Positions 1,772 to 10,106 of a DNA stretch of 64,000 nt are shown in pieces. The stretch comes from Winogradskyella sediminis. GTDB lineage: Bacteria > Bacteroidota > Bacteroidia > Flavobacteriales > Flavobacteriaceae. The notes beneath the pieces were generated by a model. The model made no database searches. It was not told where the DNA came from and saw only the letters and a list, made by a program, of their open reading frames with translations. The stretch's first letter is position 1; each line of letters begins with the position of its first letter. Where the stretch lies: NCBI RefSeq assembly GCF_003387355.1, contig NZ_QUNH01000002.1, positions 1,059,986 to 1,123,985 on the forward strand, written 5' to 3'. The position numbers were made by a program, and so were the translations under genes.

Positions 1772-2122
1772 TCAATTATACCAAACGGCATAACCTTCAC
1801 GTCGCAACTCTAGCGCAATTTGTTCTTCGGCTTTTAAAGCTTCAGCTCTTGTAACAAAAGGATCAATATGATTATAAAGACTTGGACGTAAATAGGTGCC
1901 ATATTTTTCAACAATGTTGGCCGATAATTTATAGCCATTTTTATTTCGATAGCCAGTTTTATGCTGTAAGAATCGCTCTTTAGGTGTTTTGCTAGTCATG
2001 CCAACATACAAACACTCTAAAACTCCATTAAACTGTGGATTAGCATTTCTAAATTTTGCGTTCTTGGTATATACACGCTTTGATAACTCTATAACATAAA
2101 TGGTGTAAAGCGTTTTCGCCAT
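1772..2122 (-). CDS. GIY-YIG-like small protein
   Basis: 116 residues, with no signal or membrane segment. An N-terminal strand YTIYVIEL is followed by CLYVGMTSKTPKERFLQHKTG (from residue 37), which looks like the Y-x-G-x-(S/T) core and following Arg of GIY-YIG nuclease domains. The tail EEQIALELRREGYAVWYN fits small stand-alone proteins of this type. GIY-YIG domains cut or repair DNA, but catalysis was not shown for this subfamily as far as I know. Function is inferred from the motif only. The gene lies next to the broken GNAT gene. Confidence 0.6.
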   Translation of the reverse strand: MAKTLYTIYVIELSKRVYTKNAKFRNANPQFNGVLECLYVGMTSKTPKERFLQHKTGYRNKNGYKLSANIVEKYGTYLRPSLYNHIDPFVTRAEALKAEEQIALELRREGYAVWYN

Positions 2123-2140
2123 GAATCTTTAATTTATTCC

Positions 2141-2600
2141 TTATAGGACTTCCGTTAACGTGCAAAAGTAATGCAGTAATTCTTCTTCATTATTTGGTAA
2201 TCGGCTTAGGCCATTTACACTAAACCCTAAGCCCTCTAATAGTTTTTTGGATCCTAAATTGGTGTTAAGAGTATAAGCACTTAAATCTGATAATCCATAA
2301 CTTTCTTTAGCCGCAACCATTAAACGCTGAGCAGCTTCAAAGGCATATCCTTTTCCTATAAAATTGGGTAGAAAAGCGAAACCTATATCAGGATCTTCAC
2401 GGTCTTCTCTATGATATAAACCACAAGTACCCAATTTAGTCTGATCTTAAATTTTTACAATAACATTGTTTCCATAGCCATATTTTTCCAACTGAGGAAG
2501 TGCCTTTTCATTAATTCTAAAACAAATGCTGCATCATCTTTATCAATTGGTCTGATAAGTAATCTTTCCGTTTTAAAATGTGGGTGAGTGAACAATGAAT
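2141..2600 (-). pseudogene. RimJ/RimL-type GNAT N-acetyltransferase, broken by a deletion and frameshifts
   Basis: The 3' part (2141-2434) encodes the acetyl-CoA-binding core and C-terminus of a GNAT enzyme (GTCGLYHREDREDPDIGFAF, then FIGKGYAFEAAQ). Upstream on the same strand, 2580-2509 encodes the family's typical N-terminus (HFKTERLLIRPIDKDDAAFV) in one frame, and about 2512-2450 encodes EKALPQLEKYGYGNNVIVKI in another, ending at a stop. Comparison with the family pattern indicates loss of roughly 20-30 codons after ELM, plus a second one-base shift just before DQTKLGTCG. No ATG is left at the 5' end. A 97-codon fragment is still open but lacks the N-terminal half of the fold. Confidence 0.85.
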
Positions 2601-2606
2601 GGTGGT

Positions 2607-3443
2607 TTATATTTTGAAATCTTTGGGTGTTAAACCTGTATTAAACTTAATATCGGTCCAATTTACATTAACCCATGGTGCGTCGCTGACATCGGCATTC
2701 CATGTTGAAAGTTTATATTTTCGTTTTGTAGGTATCTGTAGCCCTTCAATAGTTTCATAGTCTAAAACCATTAAGTTTGGAGTTTCCATCTTACCAAAAT
2801 CTGCCACAGTAAAAAGAAACTGATCTACTAAAGCAGTCTTTTTATTAATATATAATTGATAGATGTCTGTTGGCTTATTGTCTTTTGAATTAAACGTAAT
2901 TTTTACAATATCATAAGTTTTATTTTCAATGGTTTTCTCTTCAATATACTCATAATTTAGACCAGGATCTAATAATTTTTGAAACATGGTAAACCAATAA
3001 AAATTTGTAGGTCTGTTAAATGCTACTCTTTTTAAATAGGTATCATCTGTTAATACGTCTCCATTATGTTTTAACCAGTAGTTATATCCATCAAAGCCTT
3101 GTTCTATTAAGCCTTCTAAATTAGGTAATGTGCGCTCGTGTGTTTGATAAGCTCCATATGATAATTCACCGTCAAAAATATATTTTTCATTAGAACGATC
3201 CGTTTTTCCGTCTGGAGTTTGGTAGGTATATGTATAAGTTACATCTTTAAGTGCCCTGAGCGTATTATAATTTCCTGCATTTTGCACCATCTTATAGACT
3301 AACTCATGTCCTTTGTTTTCAAATTCTGGAGATAAGTTTTGCGTAACCTTACTCTTTTTCGTTTCAGGTTTTGTTTGGATGTCATTTTTACAAGAGACTA
3401 GAAGGAGTATTAAACTTAGGCTTGTGATAAAGGGATGTTTCAT
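2607..3443 (-). CDS. Conserved flavobacterial lipoprotein, possibly DUF6503-like
   Basis: 278 residues. The signal ends at LLVSC18, so this is a lipoprotein. The body is rich in beta strands with phrases such as GHELVYKMVQNAGNYNTLRALKD at residues 40-65 and FDGELSYGAYQTHERTLPNL. This kind of protein folds like LolA/LppX-type lipid-binding half-barrels, but no catalytic motif is visible and I do not know its role. It follows thrC by 35 bases on the same strand and may be read through from the threonine operon. The DUF assignment is from memory and uncertain. Confidence 0.7.
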   Translation of the reverse strand: MKHPFITSLSLILLLVSCKNDIQTKPETKKSKVTQNLSPEFENKGHELVYKMVQNAGNYNTLRALKDVTYTYTYQTPDGKTDRSNEKYIFDGELSYGAYQTHERTLPNLEGLIEQGFDGYNYWLKHNGDVLTDDTYLKRVAFNRPTNFYWFTMFQKLLDPGLNYEYIEEKTIENKTYDIVKITFNSKDNKPTDIYQLYINKKTALVDQFLFTVADFGKMETPNLMVLDYETIEGLQIPTKRKYKLSTWNADVSDAPWVNVNWTDIKFNTGLTPKDFKI

Positions 3444-3478
3444 TAATAGTATAATTATATGGGTTAAAATAACAGTCG

Positions 3479-4768
3479 TTAGCTTAGTAGAAAACCTTTC
3501 AGGTCGTCATAAGAATTAACAGCAATAGCTACTTTTTCTTTATGCATAACCGCTTCTATCTGTTCAGGTAAATCTACATTTTCTTTTATAACATCTTCAA
3601 CGACATCTAAAAATTTTGTAGGATGTGCGGTTTCTAAAAATACCACATGAGCTTCATTCTTTTTTAGGTAATCTTTAGCACCCAAATAACCTACAGCACC
3701 ATGTGGATCTGCTATATAATTATAATCGCTATAAAGCTCTAAAAGTGCAGCTTTTGTGTCTTCATCTGTATAGCTATATGACGAGAGATTTGCTTTAAGC
3801 GTATCAAAATCATTTTGATGAAGTTCTTGTATTCTAATAAAATTACTCGGATTACCAACATCCATGGCATTACTAATAGTTTGTACAGATGGTTTGGGTG
3901 TATACGTTTGAGAAAGCATATAATTTACAACCGTATCATTCGCGTTATTAGCGGCAATAAAATGTTTAATAGGTAAGCCTAATTTTTGAGCTACCATACC
4001 AGCACAAATATTTCCAAAATTTCCGCTAGGAACAGAAAAGACAAGGGCTTTGTTTCTAGATTTTAACTGTTTATATGCAAACATAAAATAGAAAAGTTGA
4101 GGTAACCAACGTGCAATATTGATTGAATTCGCCGACGTAAGTTGCATTTTGCTAGTTAGATCTGAATCCATAAATGCTTTTTTTACCATGTCTTGGCAAT
4201 CATCAAAAACACCATCAACTTCTAACGCCGTAATATTTTGACCAAGGGTAGTGAGTTGTTTTTCTTGTATATCACTAACTTTTCCGCTAGGATATAGAAT
4301 AACCACATTTACCCCTTTCACTCCTAAAAAACCATTAGCAACCGCACCTCCAGTATCTCCAGAAGTGGCGACTAAAACGGTAACATTCTTGGTGTTGGTT
4401 TTATTGAAATATCCCAAACAACGCGCCATGAAACGTGCACCAACATCTTTAAATGCCATTGTTGGGCCATGAAATAGTTCTAAAGTTGATATGTTTTCAC
4501 TCACGTCGACTATTGGAAAATCGAAACTTAACGTATCTTCTATAATTGTTTTAAGAACGTCTTCCGGAATCTCGGGAACTATAAATTGTTTTATGGCTTC
4601 GAAAGCTATTTCGGTGTTTGATTTGTCTTCAATGGTTTCAAAGAAGGAAGGCTCTAATGGTGTAATTGATTCAGGAAAATATAAACCTTTATCTGGCGCT
4701 AGTCCTCTTACAACGGCATCTTCGAAGGTTGTGTTAGGAGCTTTTTTGTTTAGTGAATAATAGTTCAT
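3479..4768 (-). CDS. thrC: Threonine synthase
   Basis: 429 residues, a normal length. A pyridoxal-phosphate enzyme that converts O-phosphohomoserine to threonine, the last step of the pathway. The N-terminus (MNYYSLNKKAPNTTFEDAV) and the PLP-lysine segment HGPTMAFKDVGARF with Lys107 are typical, as are the phosphate-binding SGDTGGA and the SGNFGN loop. The start codon overlaps the thrB stop by four bases (ATGA), so translation is coupled. It is the third gene of thrA-thrB-thrC. Confidence 0.97.
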   Translation of the reverse strand: MNYYSLNKKAPNTTFEDAVVRGLAPDKGLYFPESITPLEPSFFETIEDKSNTEIAFEAIKQFIVPEIPEDVLKTIIEDTLSFDFPIVDVSENISTLELFHGPTMAFKDVGARFMARCLGYFNKTNTKNVTVLVATSGDTGGAVANGFLGVKGVNVVILYPSGKVSDIQEKQLTTLGQNITALEVDGVFDDCQDMVKKAFMDSDLTSKMQLTSANSINIARWLPQLFYFMFAYKQLKSRNKALVFSVPSGNFGNICAGMVAQKLGLPIKHFIAANNANDTVVNYMLSQTYTPKPSVQTISNAMDVGNPSNFIRIQELHQNDFDTLKANLSSYSYTDEDTKAALLELYSDYNYIADPHGAVGYLGAKDYLKKNEAHVVFLETAHPTKFLDVVEDVIKENVDLPEQIEAVMHKEKVAIAVNSYDDLKGFLLS

Positions 4769-5691
4769 AATATTGTTTTTATACCTTCAGTGTTAATTTT
4801 AGAAACATAAGTTTCAAATGCAATATTTGTTTTCGCATAGACTTTTTTTATTGCCTTTTGGACTGATTTGGCAATATCTTCTCCCTTACTCAACATAAAA
4901 ATTGAAGGTCCAGAACCAGATATTGCACAACCTAATGCGCCTGCTTTCATGGCTGCGTTTTTAACGTCATCAAAATGTGGAATTAATTGTTTGCGATAAG
5001 GCTCAATGACCACATCGCATAATGCATCTTTAATTAGATCGTAGTTTGAAGTATGCAATGCATGGACCAAACTACCTACATTTGCCCATTGTATAATGGC
5101 ATTTTGCAAGAGAATTTCTTTGGGTAAAATTGCTCTAGATTCTGAAGTTTTAATTTCTATCTGTGGATGAATTAAAGTGACAAATAAATCTGATGGAGTA
5201 GGCAATTGCAAAATTTGCAATGGTGAGGCACTTTTTACCAGTGTAAATCCTCCAAATATAGCAGGCGCTAAATTATCTGCATGCTCGCACTTGCTCGCTA
5301 AAGCTTCCCCTTTCATGGCAAAGTGGGTGAGTTGTGTTTTATTTAATGGTTTTCCTAATAATTTGTTCATTCCAAAAACACTACCTGCTGCACTCGCAGA
5401 ACTGCTTCCAATACCACTACCAGGTTTTATATTTTTATAAATTTCAATTTCAAAACCACAATCTGGTTGTAGCGAATTGTACATAGCTAAAGCAGAAACT
5501 CCAGCAACATTTTGCTCGACTTCAAAAGGTAAATCATAACCTTCAATTGCAGTAATTTTAATTCCTTTTTGTTCGGTTTGTCTAATTACCATCTCATCTC
5601 CAATGGTATCCAGACAAAAACCTAAAACATCAAAACCACAAGCTACATTAGCCACAGTTGCCGGAGAAAATATTCTAATTTCTTTATTCAT
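4765..5691 (-). CDS. thrB: Homoserine kinase
   Basis: 308 residues from the ATG at 5691. A longer frame reaches 5775, but its first 28 residues only read through the 3' end of thrA; the family N-terminus is MNKEIRIFSPATVANVACGF. It is a GHMP-family kinase that phosphorylates homoserine with ATP. The ATP-binding glycine-rich motif KPGSGIGSSSAS is at residues 89-100, and the C-terminal GHMP motif GCAISGSGPSIF is present. It starts 4 bases after the thrA stop and overlaps thrC by 4 bases, a tightly coupled operon. Confidence 0.96.
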   Translation of the reverse strand: MNKEIRIFSPATVANVACGFDVLGFCLDTIGDEMVIRQTEQKGIKITAIEGYDLPFEVEQNVAGVSALAMYNSLQPDCGFEIEIYKNIKPGSGIGSSSASAAGSVFGMNKLLGKPLNKTQLTHFAMKGEALASKCEHADNLAPAIFGGFTLVKSASPLQILQLPTPSDLFVTLIHPQIEIKTSESRAILPKEILLQNAIIQWANVGSLVHALHTSNYDLIKDALCDVVIEPYRKQLIPHFDDVKNAAMKAGALGCAISGSGPSIFMLSKGEDIAKSVQKAIKKVYAKTNIAFETYVSKINTEGIKTIL

Positions 5692-5695
5692 TAAA

Positions 5696-8167
5696 TTAGT
5701 TATTAGCGATTCTAATAATATCAGCAAACAATCCAGAGGCTGTAACATCTGCACCTGCACCTGCACCTTTAACAATTAAAGGTTGTTCTGGGTAACGTTG
5801 GGTATAGAACATAACTATATTATCTTTTCCTTTTAAGTTATAAAACGGATGACCTTCAGGAATTTCTTTTAAACCCACTTTTGCTTTGCCATCATTAAGT
5901 TCAGCAACAAATTTTAGTTGGCAATTATTTTCTTGCGCAGATTTGAATAGGCTTTGGTAATAGCCTTCATCTTCTATTAGTGTTTTAAAGAAATCATCAA
6001 CCGTATTAGAGGTTATGGCATTTTCTGTTAAGAAACTATCACTCTCAAGTTCTGATAATTCTATATCAAGACCACTTTCTCGTGCTAAGATTAAAATTTT
6101 TCGAGCTACGTCAATACCGCTTAGATCTATTCTAGGATCTGGTTCTGTATAGCCTTCTTCTTGTGCTTGTTTTACAACATCGTAGAAAGTAGTATCTGCA
6201 TTAAAGTTATTAAATATAAAATTAAGACTTCCAGATAACACGGCTTGAATGGTGTTTACTTTATCGCCAGAGGTTATGAGGTTACTCAAGGTATCTAAAA
6301 CAGGTAAACCAGCACCAACATTAGTTTCAAATAAAAATGAGGCATTGTATTGTCTGGATAATGTTTTGAGCTCATTATAATATTCCATCTTACCAGAACA
6401 AGCAATTTTATTACATGCAACAACAGAAATACTTTGTTTTAAATAGTTACTGTAAATATTAGCTACGGCTTCATTTGCCGTGATATCGACAAAAACGGAA
6501 TTTCTTAAGTTTAGATTTTTAGCATGTTCAAAGAAGCCCTCTAAACTAGATTTTTCACCATTTTTAAGTTCGTGTTTCCAGTGGTTTAAGTTAATGCCTT
6601 CATCATCAACAATCATGGTTCTCGAATTTGATAAACCAGCAATTCTTAAATTGATTTTTAGATTGGCTTTTAAGTAAGCTTTTTGTTGTTTTATCTGTTC
6701 AATAAGTCGCTCTCCTACGTTACCTACACCTGTAATAAATAGGTTGATTTGCTTGGTCTTAATTTCAAAAAATTGCTCGTGCAAACTATTTAATGCTTTT
6801 TTTACATCATTTTTATGAATTACAGCCGAAATATTACGTTCGGATGCGCCTTGAGCGATTGCTCTAATATTAACATTATTTTTACCAAGTGTACTAAACA
6901 TTTTTCCACTAATACCTTGGTGGTTTTTCATTTTGTCACCTATAACTGCGATAATGGATAAGTTGGTCTCTACAACAATCGGATCTATTTTTTGTAGTGC
7001 TATTTCATATTCAAAAACGGTATCGATAGCGATTTTTGCACGCTCAGCGTCGCGATCAGATATACCAAAGCAAATGGTATGTTCTGAAGACGACTGTGTA
7101 ATCAAAATAATATTAATTTTCTCTTGCGCTAACGTTTCAAATAAACGTTTACTAAAACCCGGAACACCTACCATGCCATTACCTTGTAAGGTGAGTAAAG
7201 CGACATTATCGATATTACTAATGCCTTTTACCGGAGAATTTCCATTAGGAGCAATATTTTGGGTGATAGTTGTTCCGATAGCATTAGGATCTAATGTGTT
7301 TTTTATGACAATCGGAATTTTCTTTTTTAATACAGGCATTACGGTTGGAGGATATAATACTTTGGCACCAAAATGAGACAATTCAACAGCTTCTTGGTAA
7401 GATAACTCAACAATAGGAGAGGCTTGTTTTACTAATTTTGGATTGGTTGTAAACATACCACTTACATCGGTCCATATTTGTAATTCGTCAGCCTCCATTG
7501 CAGCTGCTATAATTGCAGCGGTGTAATCTGAACCTCCGCGACCTAATGTAGTAATGTCATTATTTACAGACTTAGACACAAATCCAGGCAAAAGAACAAT
7601 AGCGTTAGAATTTGAGTTAAAATACGATTGTATATTTGTATTTGTAATATCAAAATTGACTGTAGCATTGTTAAAGTTAGAATCTGTAATAATGAGCTCT
7701 TGAGAATTTTTTAAATCTGCATCTAAACCTCTTGATTTTAAGGTGTGATAAATGATCGTTGATGATAAAGTTTCACCAAAACTTAATAATTTGTCTTTGG
7801 TTTTTGGAGACAATTCATTGATGAGATAAATACCATCGAGAAGGCTTTTTAGATCATTTAATTTTTCAGTAATTAAATCAGACAAAACATCTTGCTGTTG
7901 CTGTGTAGCTGGGTTATCTGTGTTTAAAAATAAACCTTCAATGACACTATTATGAATTGACCAAATCGTATCATATTTTTGTTTGTAATCTATGTTTTTA
8001 TCGCAAGCTAAAGTGCCAGCTTCTAATAATTTATCTGTAATTCCGCCAACAGCAGAAACTACAACAGCTATAGGTGTTGTTTTAGATTGTTGGTCTAAAA
8101 TTGAAATGACTTTATTTATGTTTTCGGCTGAACCAACTGATGTTCCTCCAAATTTGAGAACTTTCAT
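5696..8167 (-). CDS. thrA: Bifunctional aspartokinase / homoserine dehydrogenase I
   Basis: 823 residues, the length of fused ThrA proteins. The aspartokinase domain opens with KFGGTSVGSAENI and contains LGRGGSDYTA. Two ACT regulatory domains follow (around residues 310-460, including ISGKMFSTLGKNNVNIRAIA). The homoserine dehydrogenase half begins near LFITGVGNVGERLIEQ (NAD(P)-binding Rossmann fold) and ends with the GAGAGADVTASGLFADI signature. It catalyses steps 1 and 3 of the aspartate pathway and feeds Thr, Met and Ile synthesis. It is preceded by a leader peptide at 8228-8329, which suggests control by amino-acid supply. Confidence 0.97.
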   Translation of the reverse strand: MKVLKFGGTSVGSAENINKVISILDQQSKTTPIAVVVSAVGGITDKLLEAGTLACDKNIDYKQKYDTIWSIHNSVIEGLFLNTDNPATQQQQDVLSDLITEKLNDLKSLLDGIYLINELSPKTKDKLLSFGETLSSTIIYHTLKSRGLDADLKNSQELIITDSNFNNATVNFDITNTNIQSYFNSNSNAIVLLPGFVSKSVNNDITTLGRGGSDYTAAIIAAAMEADELQIWTDVSGMFTTNPKLVKQASPIVELSYQEAVELSHFGAKVLYPPTVMPVLKKKIPIVIKNTLDPNAIGTTITQNIAPNGNSPVKGISNIDNVALLTLQGNGMVGVPGFSKRLFETLAQEKINIILITQSSSEHTICFGISDRDAERAKIAIDTVFEYEIALQKIDPIVVETNLSIIAVIGDKMKNHQGISGKMFSTLGKNNVNIRAIAQGASERNISAVIHKNDVKKALNSLHEQFFEIKTKQINLFITGVGNVGERLIEQIKQQKAYLKANLKINLRIAGLSNSRTMIVDDEGINLNHWKHELKNGEKSSLEGFFEHAKNLNLRNSVFVDITANEAVANIYSNYLKQSISVVACNKIACSGKMEYYNELKTLSRQYNASFLFETNVGAGLPVLDTLSNLITSGDKVNTIQAVLSGSLNFIFNNFNADTTFYDVVKQAQEEGYTEPDPRIDLSGIDVARKILILARESGLDIELSELESDSFLTENAITSNTVDDFFKTLIEDEGYYQSLFKSAQENNCQLKFVAELNDGKAKVGLKEIPEGHPFYNLKGKDNIVMFYTQRYPEQPLIVKGAGAGADVTASGLFADIIRIANN

Positions 8168-8194
8168 ATTATAAAAAATTTAAGAGAATAAAAA

Positions 8195-8208
8195 TGTCTG
8201 TATAGACA
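8195..8208 (-). promoter_or_regulatory. Weak hairpin with T-run between the leader peptide and thrA
   Basis: On the minus strand TGTCT-ATAC-AGACA (5-bp stem) is followed directly by five T residues. It sits between the leader stop codon and the thrA start, where an attenuation terminator would be expected. The stem is short, so its role is uncertain. Confidence 0.35.
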
Positions 8209-8227
8209 ATAAGGGACGGAGAGCATA

Positions 8228-8329
8228 TTATAAATTACCCCAAGGGGTAATACCTGTTGAAATAATAAACATAGACATGCACATAGACTGTGAAATAGAA
8301 ATGGCTGATATGTTAAATATTTTCTTCAT
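8228..8329 (-). CDS. Threonine-operon leader peptide (33 residues, Ile-rich with Met and Thr codons)
   Basis: The minus strand reads ATG at 8329 to TAA at 8228. The peptide opens MKKIFNISAISISQS, has Met at 16, 18 and 20, then FIISTGITPWGNL. Seven of 33 codons are Ile, four Met (with the start) and two Thr, which are the amino acids made from the thrA product line. It lies 60 bases upstream of thrA and is preceded by a TAnnTTTG promoter box. Its last codons overlap a perfect palindrome (8234-8251). The position and composition fit a translating-ribosome attenuation leader. No homology search was possible, so the peptide is a strong candidate rather than proven. Confidence 0.72.
   Translation of the reverse strand: MKKIFNISAISISQSMCMSMFIISTGITPWGNL
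8234..8251 (-). promoter_or_regulatory. GC-rich palindrome overlapping the end of the thr leader peptide
   Basis: ATTACCCC and GGGGTAAT form a perfect 8-bp inverted repeat with a 2-base centre, covering codons 27-32 of the leader peptide. It is the strongest stem in this AT-rich region. A ribosome stalled on the Ile/Thr codons just before it would stop it from forming. No T-run follows directly, so it may be an anti-terminator, a pause hairpin or a translation-control element. Confidence 0.55.
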
Positions 8330-8336
8330 TACATTT

Positions 8337-8344
8337 CAAATGTA
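8337..8344 (-). promoter_or_regulatory. Bacteroidota -7 promoter box for the thr operon
   Basis: TACATTTG on the minus strand matches TAnnTTTG exactly and lies 7 bases before the leader ATG. The nearest upstream TTG is 23 bases away, slightly long. If used, the transcript would begin only a few bases before the leader start codon. Confidence 0.55.
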
Positions 8345-8552
8345 TTATTTTTATAACAATAAAAAAACAATTCGTTTCTTTTTAGGGATTTGTTAAAAAT
8401 ACCGCTTCTTATTATTAAAAATGAAACAAAACTTGTTATTTTCAAAATCTTTTAAAACATTATATGTCAAATTCATAATTATAAGTTTTAAGTTGAGTAA
8501 AATTAAATTATGGAGGTCATATTTGCAGTTATAATAAAACACATAGTAATAC

Positions 8553-10106
8553 ATGAAATTATTTTCTAAAGAACAAATTTACGAAGGGGATAAGTTAACT
8601 ACAGAGCGCCAAAATATCTCCTCTACAGATTTAATGGAACGTGCTGGTACACAAATTTTTAATTGGATGCATGCACGTATGCAAGGCGCACAAGTGCCGA
8701 TTCATGTATTTTGTGGTATTGGCAATAATGGTGGAGATGGACTTGTTTTGGCTAGACACTTAGTAACACATGGATATAATGTGGTGTGCTATATTGTAAA
8801 TTGCAGCGATAAGCGTTCTAAAGATTTTTTAATTAATTACGACCGTATTAAATCTGTAAGTAAAACATGGCCAAACATGTTGAGTTGTAAGGAAGATTTA
8901 TCTGAAATTACAATTGGAGGTGATGATATTATAGTAGATGCTGTATTTGGAATAGGACTAAACAGACCTCCTAATGATTGGGTAAAGCATTTGTTTCAAA
9001 AATTTAAAGTATCTAAAGCGTTTACCTTATCTATCGATATCCCATCTGGTTTATTTACAGATAGAGCTGTAGATGATGAAGATGCTGTAGTTTATGCAGG
9101 TTATACCTTAAGTTTTCAATCACCAAAGTTAGCATTCTTTTTGCCTGGAACCCAAAAATTTACGGTACAATGGGAAGTTTTGGATATAGGTATAGATCGC
9201 GATTATCTTAGAGAAACGGAAACGGAAGTTGAATTGATTGCTAAGCATGAAGTATTACCACTTTACAAACCGAGACAAAAGTTTGCACATAAGGGAGATT
9301 TTGGACACGTTATGATTCTAGGTGGAAGCTATGGTAAAATAGGAGCGGTTAATTTAGCTAGTAGATCTGCTTTGAATTCTGGAGCAGGATTGGTAACAGT
9401 TTATATTCCTACATGTGGTTATCATAGTATGCAAACCGCTGTACCAGAAGTTATGGTCATTACTGATGAACATGAAACTCATATTTCTAATATTAATTTC
9501 GATATACAACCAACTGTTATTGGTGTTGGAGTAGGACTCGGTACTTCTGAAGATACAGTTAAGACATTTGCAGCATTTTTGAAAAAGAATACCATACCTT
9601 TAGTTATTGATGCGGATGGTATAAACATTTTGTCTAGAAATAAAACATTGTTGAATCTGTTACCAGAGCAAACGGTATTAACACCACATTTAAAAGAATT
9701 AGAGCGCATTATTGGAACGTGGTCTGATGATTTTGAAATGCTAGAAAAAGTTAAAGCATTCTCTGAGAAATATAATGTTATTGTCTTAATCAAAGGAGCA
9801 CATTCTATTACTGTTAACAAGAATAAAATGTATATTAATACCACTGGAAATCCTGGTATGGCAACTGCAGGAAGTGGTGATGTGCTAACCGGAATGATTT
9901 CAGGATTAATAGCTCAAGGCTATACACCTTTAGCTGCTACTATTTTTGCTGTGTATTTACATGGGAAATCTGCTGATATCTCCCTTGAAGATTACGGTTA
10001 TCAAAGTTTAATAGCGAGTCATATTATTGAAAAGATTGGTGAAGCATATATTGATTTGTTTAAACAACCAGAGCAGCCTAAAGAAGAGACACAACAAAAA
10101 CAATAA
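8553..10106 (+). CDS. nnr: Bifunctional NAD(P)HX epimerase / ADP-dependent NAD(P)HX dehydratase
   Basis: 517 residues. The N-terminal YjeF domain (about 1-215; MKLFSKEQIYEGDKLT, then CGIGNNGGDGLVLARHL) is the NAD(P)HX epimerase. The C-terminal ribokinase-like domain (about 225-500) is the dehydratase, with GGSYGKIGAVNLASRSAL, DADGIN and the nucleotide-binding AGSGDVLTGMISGL. The protein repairs hydrated, damaged NADH and NADPH in the cytosol. It is a stand-alone gene closed by a strong bidirectional terminator. The start is the first ATG with the family N-terminus. Confidence 0.95.
   Translation: MKLFSKEQIYEGDKLTTERQNISSTDLMERAGTQIFNWMHARMQGAQVPIHVFCGIGNNGGDGLVLARHLVTHGYNVVCYIVNCSDKRSKDFLINYDRIKSVSKTWPNMLSCKEDLSEITIGGDDIIVDAVFGIGLNRPPNDWVKHLFQKFKVSKAFTLSIDIPSGLFTDRAVDDEDAVVYAGYTLSFQSPKLAFFLPGTQKFTVQWEVLDIGIDRDYLRETETEVELIAKHEVLPLYKPRQKFAHKGDFGHVMILGGSYGKIGAVNLASRSALNSGAGLVTVYIPTCGYHSMQTAVPEVMVITDEHETHISNINFDIQPTVIGVGVGLGTSEDTVKTFAAFLKKNTIPLVIDADGINILSRNKTLLNLLPEQTVLTPHLKELERIIGTWSDDFEMLEKVKAFSEKYNVIVLIKGAHSITVNKNKMYINTTGNPGMATAGSGDVLTGMISGLIAQGYTPLAATIFAVYLHGKSADISLEDYGYQSLIASHIIEKIGEAYIDLFKQPEQPKEETQQKQ

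Follow-up and report, generated by a model that had tools for sequence, protein, structure and literature searches.

What is the short open reading frame (ORF) in front of the threonine operon of Winogradskyella sediminis, and, if it is a leader peptide, which amino acids does it sense and how could it act on thrABC? We addressed this question in a window of 64,000 nucleotides (the whole stretch of DNA that was analysed), on the minus strand of which the leader ORF is followed by thrA (starting at 8167) and then by thrB and thrC. The features that the argument needs, numbered by window position, are the following:

8337 to 8344, minus strand: TAnnTTTG -7 promoter box (TACATTTG), 7 nt before the ATG, seen in the sequence
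8228 to 8329, minus strand: leader ORF of 33 codons, MKKIFNISAISISQSMCMSMFIISTGITPWGNL, from the sequence and its counterparts in relatives
8246 to 8284, minus strand: presumed control codons Met16, Met18, Met20, Ile22, Ile23, Thr25, Ile27 and Thr28, from position-specific counts and the association of Met with the number of homoserine dehydrogenases (HSDHs)
8234 to 8251, minus strand: hairpin A (ATTACCCC-TT-GGGGTAAT), which overlaps the last codons of the ORF, from folding and conservation
8213 to 8223, minus strand: C-rich tract, poor in G, downstream of the leader stop codon (CTCTCCGTCCC), from alignments and C/G counts
8195 to 8208, minus strand: hairpin B (TGTCT-ATAC-AGACA), from folding and covariation
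8190 to 8194, minus strand: run of five T after hairpin B, seen in the sequence
5696 to 8167, minus strand: thrA, bifunctional aspartate kinase/homoserine dehydrogenase I, from a family match
4765 to 5775, minus strand: thrB, homoserine kinase, from a family match that begins at residue 34, so that the true start is probably around 5676
3479 to 4768, minus strand: thrC, threonine synthase, from a family match

An earlier reading made from the letters of this DNA alone (the sequence-only reading) had placed a 33-codon ORF between a TAnnTTTG box and thrA, and both are present. Its codon counts are correct for Ile (7) and Thr (2), but the four Met codons that it listed include the initiator, which leaves three internal ones. 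Set against the long ORFs of the window, the composition of the leader gives P = 0.012 for Ile, P = 0.027 for Met, and P = 0.53 for Thr. As a single sequence the ORF is statistically weak, and that it goes beyond chance follows from its conservation in relatives rather than from these figures. An NCBIfam search with the leader peptide gave no match, and 4227 Rfam leader and riboswitch models returned only chance-level matches in the leader region (8100-8420). Taking all evidence below together, the ORF before thrABC is most likely a regulatory leader peptide that senses Thr and Ile and, in genomes whose methionine is fed by ThrA alone, also Met.

The computed spacing between promoter box and ATG is 7 nt in 33 of 37 leaders of the genus, and the box ends 16-23 nt upstream of the start codon in 78 of 104 leaders outside it. 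Extracts of two studies (PMC6847099, PMC9723704) place the last G of the Flavobacterium box at -5. Because of this published position and the 7-nt spacing, transcription is predicted to start 2-3 nt before the leader AUG, at about 8331-8332, which would leave a 5' UTR of 2-3 nt and a near-leaderless mRNA. Among 890 mapped transcripts of F. psychrophilum, 5.5% are given as leaderless in an extract of PMC9723704.

The nearest named relatives of the host are Winogradskyella species, and the sequence-only reading had held that absence of the ORF from close relatives would mark it as a chance ORF. Among 68 genomes bearing the host's genus code (its own included), 37 carry the leader before thrA, one of them (L118) with a usual ATG frame that breaks after four codons. 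The remaining 31 comprise one frameshifted copy (G049), 21 genomes with a thrA that lacks the leader, and 9 with no full-length ThrA match. On these counts the leader is not refuted by the condition that the sequence-only reading had set. The DNA directly before thrA is alike and coding-looking by eye in nine of the 21 leaderless genomes, and in the one of these nine that was checked with Pfam (G042; L180), thrA is the last gene of an ilvDBNCA operon. That ilv operon (L180, L266) is headed by an Ile-rich leader of its own, MKKQTTNIISITIIAIISQ, with a strong terminator, and has no thr leader before thrA. At L121-L127 (from G050, G024, G007, G020, G048, G051, and G027), the promoter box before thrA has been retained, and the leader ORF and hairpin A have, as judged by eye, apparently decayed. 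The leader recurs at a comparable position upstream of thrA in other Flavobacteriaceae, where its Thr/Ile-rich end runs into a conserved hairpin (for example ...FGTTTIITTLWGC). It had been called Ile-dominated, which is true of the genus (126 Ile versus 61 Thr in the last 14 codons of the 37 leaders) but not of the other 104 leaders (280 Ile versus 445 Thr).

For comparisons across the family, a first set was drawn from 170 upstream regions (144 distinct), with an ORF after the promoter box called in 113. Manual inspection removed thirteen of them that do not represent the leader studied here, leaving 100, and exclusion of L101, for which there is no HSDH count, gave 99. Among the 13 are L115 (the frameshifted copy of G049, with one HSDH and no Met near the hairpin), which counts against a methionine-sensing role, and L133 (from G066, with one HSDH and a Thr/Ile/Met ORF without hairpin A), which counts for it. 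For a second set, 60 genomes were selected by genus and HSDH number, blind to Met, and a leader was found in 43 (19 of 30 with one HSDH and 24 of 30 with two); the dropouts of this set with a weaker candidate were L211, L212, L241, and L252, of which L212 (one HSDH) has Met. Five Thr plus Ile in the tail were required in the second set, and the first set retained some leaders below five. Removal of two duplicates from the pooled sets gave a total of 140 leaders. The order-level leaders L161, L163, and L164 have no matching promoter box and were left uncounted.

The end of the ORF runs into hairpin A, which had been described as a perfect 8-bp GC-rich palindrome: two 8-nt arms around TT do overlap the last codons, but only half of their letters are G or C, and in the folded RNA 7 bp form around a loop of 4 nt. 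With minimum requirements of 5 bp and 3 GC pairs, a hairpin was computed at this place in 34 of 37 leaders of the genus and in 36 of 63 from outside it, versus about 7% of shuffles. It is unbroken in all 28 genus leaders of alignment A2, which omits the nine most divergent of the 37 and thus by its selection favours structure. Over the hairpin, CCC...GGG stays constant while the encoded residues vary (TLWG, TPLG, TPWG, or TR-stop), and RNAalifold on mixed MAFFT alignments recovered the core of hairpin A alone. Folding of the RNA, a check that the sequence-only reading had proposed, gave a leader fold no better than that of shuffles (z of -0.04 and -0.36).

The small hairpin with a T-run that had been noted before thrA is likewise present as hairpin B. 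Outside the genus, stems of at least 6 bp occur in 63% of 63 leaders versus 14% of shuffles. In 28 of these 63, chosen by eye because hairpin B could be aligned in them (alignment A1, again a selection that favours structure), 98.5% of cells pair in the outer helix, 4 of whose 5 pairs show changes on both sides, and the structure as a whole exceeds all 500 shuffles on the measures given. Within the genus, hairpin B has 5 bp and does not exceed chance in its length (6 bp or more in 10.8% versus 7.4% by chance), and its position is kept in the 28 aligned leaders; no consistent T-run after it was found in the printed tails of other genera. Finally, the 60 nt that follow the leader stop contain more C than G (mean 10.5 C versus 4.7 G) in 134 of 141 leaders, which are related and hence not independent cases. 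For comparison, C outnumbers G in 78 of 141 when a stretch upstream of each leader is taken, and in 13 of 30 UTRs of the window.

How could these elements control transcription? One answer would be classical intrinsic attenuation, with hairpin A or B as a weak terminator for this RNA polymerase and an antiterminator that we missed, and we regard it as doubtful. A lenient terminator scan, which 3.8% of shuffles pass, does accept hairpin A in 25 of 37 genus leaders including this one, five T follow hairpin B here, and a strong terminator with a T-run (-14.9 kcal/mol) precedes thrA at the different Thr/Ile/Met leader of G066. Outside the genus, however, the lenient scan accepts only 23 of 104 leaders, a stricter scan of 7500-9000 found no site, and hairpin A is followed by mixed A/T without a U-run. 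By contrast, the host's own Trp leader, MNINTNHTWWWNFSNLRS (L264, minus strand of the locus), which lies 9 nt after a TAnnTTTG box and in front of a trpE-like gene, one of three chorismate-binding genes, has a canonical terminator with a strong stem and then TTTTTT; attenuation by a leader peptide is thus nothing foreign to this genome. Both this trp leader and the ilv leader of the relative have long stems with T-runs, to which the thr leader has nothing comparable. The classical terminator and antiterminator that the sequence-only reading had seen in the palindrome and the T-run hairpin are thus not supported, given also that hairpin B is weak and that the pairings tested are no better than shuffles. 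In one of these candidates, an antiterminator would arise when the 3' arm of hairpin A pairs with the C-rich tract downstream of it; the mean duplex was -5.4 kcal/mol versus -6.0 kcal/mol for shuffles, and this candidate was rejected. The ORF of G066 itself (MRYIINIMTTMITMIP, L133:362-410), in a genome with one HSDH and without the family leader, looks unrelated and perhaps represents a second origin of a Thr/Ile/Met leader; lacking hairpin A, it stands outside the 140 counts. In place of an intrinsic terminator, our preferred though unproven explanation is that the C excess marks a loading site for Rho that would be exposed once the ribosome departs.

Why should a threonine leader contain methionine codons? 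The genome of W. sediminis has a single match to the HSDH family PF00742, which makes ThrA the only HSDH found, and its leader has the three internal Met. We therefore compared the number of family matches per genome with Met in the 12 codons before hairpin A. In the first set, Met was present in 35 of 40 leaders from genomes with one HSDH and 5 of 59 from genomes with two, a window of 12 codons having been picked after this set; in the second set it was present in 13 of 19 versus 4 of 24 (13 of 18 versus 4 of 23 with duplicates out, Fisher P 0.001). The pooled 140 leaders give 48 of 58 versus 9 of 82, the latter becoming 9 of 81 without L118 (G054; two HSDHs, no Met), which was counted from an inner GTG. 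Other windows gave 25 of 58 versus 8 of 82 leaders at 8 codons, 47 versus 9 at 10, 49 versus 15 at 14, and 50 versus 17 at 16. The exceptions are 10 of 58 one-HSDH leaders without Met and 9 of 82 two-HSDH leaders with it, such as G052, where Met codons were kept despite a riboswitch-linked HSDH.

Shared ancestry was taken into account on a tree of ThrA, along which HSDH number must have changed 21 times or more and Met presence 20 times or more. Seventeen well-supported independent pairs gave a mean of 8.9 for and 1.7 against the association, which is borderline at 12 codons (median P 0.039) and not significant at 8, 10, 14, and 16 codons (median P 0.07 to 0.18); 9 pairs on a smaller first tree pointed in the same direction without significance. 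A likelihood test of correlated evolution gave a likelihood ratio (LR) of 33.5 (4 df, P 9e-7), a value reached in none of 60 null simulations, and an LR of 37.4 when three long branches and three doubtful genomes were excluded. Among control residues, Gly (2.8), Asn (7.3), and Ser (1.3) stayed low but Leu reached 20.0; because of this Leu signal the test must be partly inflated, and we trust the exact P less than the association itself.

The leader might then sense only Thr and Ile, with its Met codons incidental and due to drift, RNA-level constraints, or the history of the genus. Such a view gains from Met positions that vary between clades and, in the genus, are distant from the hairpin, from the exceptions in both directions, and from Leu, which likewise gives a signal in the likelihood test. 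We nevertheless consider it unlikely: although Gly, Leu, Asn, and Ile differ as well, the P for Met is by far the smallest of the 20 amino acids (4e-18, odds ratio 36), and the association persists in the second set, on the tree, and without the genus (LR 27.2; Met in 19 of 26 one-HSDH versus 7 of 77 two-HSDH leaders). The methionine component of the leader is well supported.

The surroundings of the second HSDH genes suggest where the difference may come from. At seven such loci of relatives (L173-L179), a SAM-I riboswitch was computed at six, with none found at L178, which comes from a 73%-complete genome. Pfam searches in parts of four of these loci gave Cys/Met PLP enzymes in L173, L174, and L179 and an alpha/beta hydrolase, taken for MetX, in L176; HSDH was matched in L173, L174, and L179, in L173 as a fusion to aspartate kinase. 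This L173 protein (1883-5287) has 1134 residues, of which the last 800 are aspartate kinase-homoserine dehydrogenase and some 320 at the N-terminus are without a match, and it lies downstream of the Cys/Met PLP gene and the SAM-I riboswitch. At L174, L175, L176, and L179, a SAM-I and a SAM-II riboswitch occupy opposite strands next to the methionine genes, with about 125-260 nt between them. The host genome has two SAM-I loci, one with a PLP enzyme and an alpha/beta hydrolase of the L176 kind and the other with a PLP enzyme, a homocysteine methyltransferase, and MetH. A PF00742 search found no second HSDH in this genome, neither at these loci nor elsewhere, and homoserine for methionine should therefore come from ThrA, which would make a Met-sensing leader useful. 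The host's MetH (L269:2616-5774), a B12-dependent methionine synthase, contains a DUF559 domain embedded at residues 433-539 between its B12-binding regions.

We propose the following course of events, in which translation of the leader, stalling of the ribosome, the direction of control, and the role of Rho are what we infer from the elements described above. RNA polymerase would start 2-3 nt before the leader AUG with a ribosome in its wake. A shortage of charged tRNA-Thr, tRNA-Ile, or tRNA-Met would cause this ribosome to stall at the Thr/Ile codons by hairpin A or at the Met codons slightly upstream, block hairpin A and/or shield the C-rich RNA beyond, and so allow transcription into thrABC. 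When the amino acids are ample, the ribosome would finish, hairpin A could form, the C-rich tract would lie bare, and transcription would be cut short, perhaps by Rho. Methionine would be included in the sensor because ThrA, as sole HSDH, also supplies methionine. A stall at Met cannot simply cover the 5' arm of hairpin A, because the Met codons of the genus lie mostly 8 and 12 codons upstream of it.

An effect on translation of thrA instead of transcription, exerted at its start by either hairpin B or the C-rich tract, appears improbable to us. Hairpin B covaries in the aligned subset and lies close upstream of thrA, but it ends 27 nt before the thrA ATG, and duplexes between the C-rich tract and the thrA start score no better than those with species-permuted or shuffled partners. 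A chance ORF without any regulatory role, which would suit the weak single-sequence statistics, is hardly credible for a frame conserved across the family. We thus think it probable that the whole model holds, namely a leader peptide of thrABC at which stalling for Thr, Ile, or Met controls transcription, perhaps through Rho; against it stand the absence of a canonical terminator, the exceptions both ways, the borderline pairs test, and the distance of the Met codons from hairpin A. Attenuation that senses three amino acids at once, as originally suggested, is in this sense supported by the conserved leader, by Thr/Ile codons at a conserved hairpin, and by Met that tracks ThrA as the sole HSDH, whereas its classical terminator/antiterminator form is not supported. 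More tentatively, as plausible rather than probable, we suggest that codon content tracks metabolic wiring (Met lost upon gain of a SAM-controlled HSDH and regained upon HSDH loss) in combination with a near-leaderless mRNA that has no intrinsic terminator and is controlled by Rho on a ribosome-shielded C-rich tract.

About 20 natural switches on the ThrA tree make it possible to compare what a leader "asks" with the supply that its operon has to provide, so that it becomes testable whether leader codons reflect the output of a pathway, as has long been assumed; the leader also points to a terminator-poor attenuator in this phylum. Searching an open-access collection, with subscription papers mostly outside it, turned up no title or opening of an abstract describing a thr leader in Bacteroidetes and no experimental thr-leader study from the phylum.

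In E. coli, thrL is a short ORF rich in Thr/Ile codons that lies directly before thrABC and ends near an RNA hairpin (Rfam Thr_leader). The leader of W. sediminis resembles it in the Thr and Ile codons clustered near a hairpin in a short ORF between promoter and thrA. Unlike at thrL, no strong Rho-independent terminator was found here, the hairpin overlaps the end of the ORF, Rfam gives no match, the transcript is predicted to be near-leaderless, and Met codons occur where ThrA is the only HSDH. A Thr/Ile/Met leader was reportedly predicted by Vitreschak et al. in 2004 (FEMS Microbiol Lett 234:357) for thrA of Pasteurellales, which is said to encode a single bifunctional AK-HSDH. The two leaders would share their control codons and this single enzyme; ours differs in belonging to another phylum and in that the presence of Met was tested against HSDH number over 140 leaders. 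Vitreschak et al. 2004 is cited in an extract of PMC1262725. For F. psychrophilum, of the same family as our host, an extract of PMC9723704 reports clues to leader-peptide attenuation upstream of amino acid operons and names there no thr leader, Met codons, or mechanism, and an extract of PMC7366714 mentions that some 5' UTRs of B. thetaiotaomicron contain short ORFs reminiscent of leader peptides. A leaderless leader ORF is found in trpL of Sinorhizobium meliloti, which according to an extract of PMC7298713 starts at the very 5' end of its mRNA, as the thr leader is predicted nearly to do, but trpL senses Trp and belongs to another phylum. Attenuation by a leader peptide is therefore a known kind of control that was already suspected in Flavobacterium, and it is the absence of a strong terminator together with the coupling of Met codons to HSDH number that sets this leader apart as a variant.
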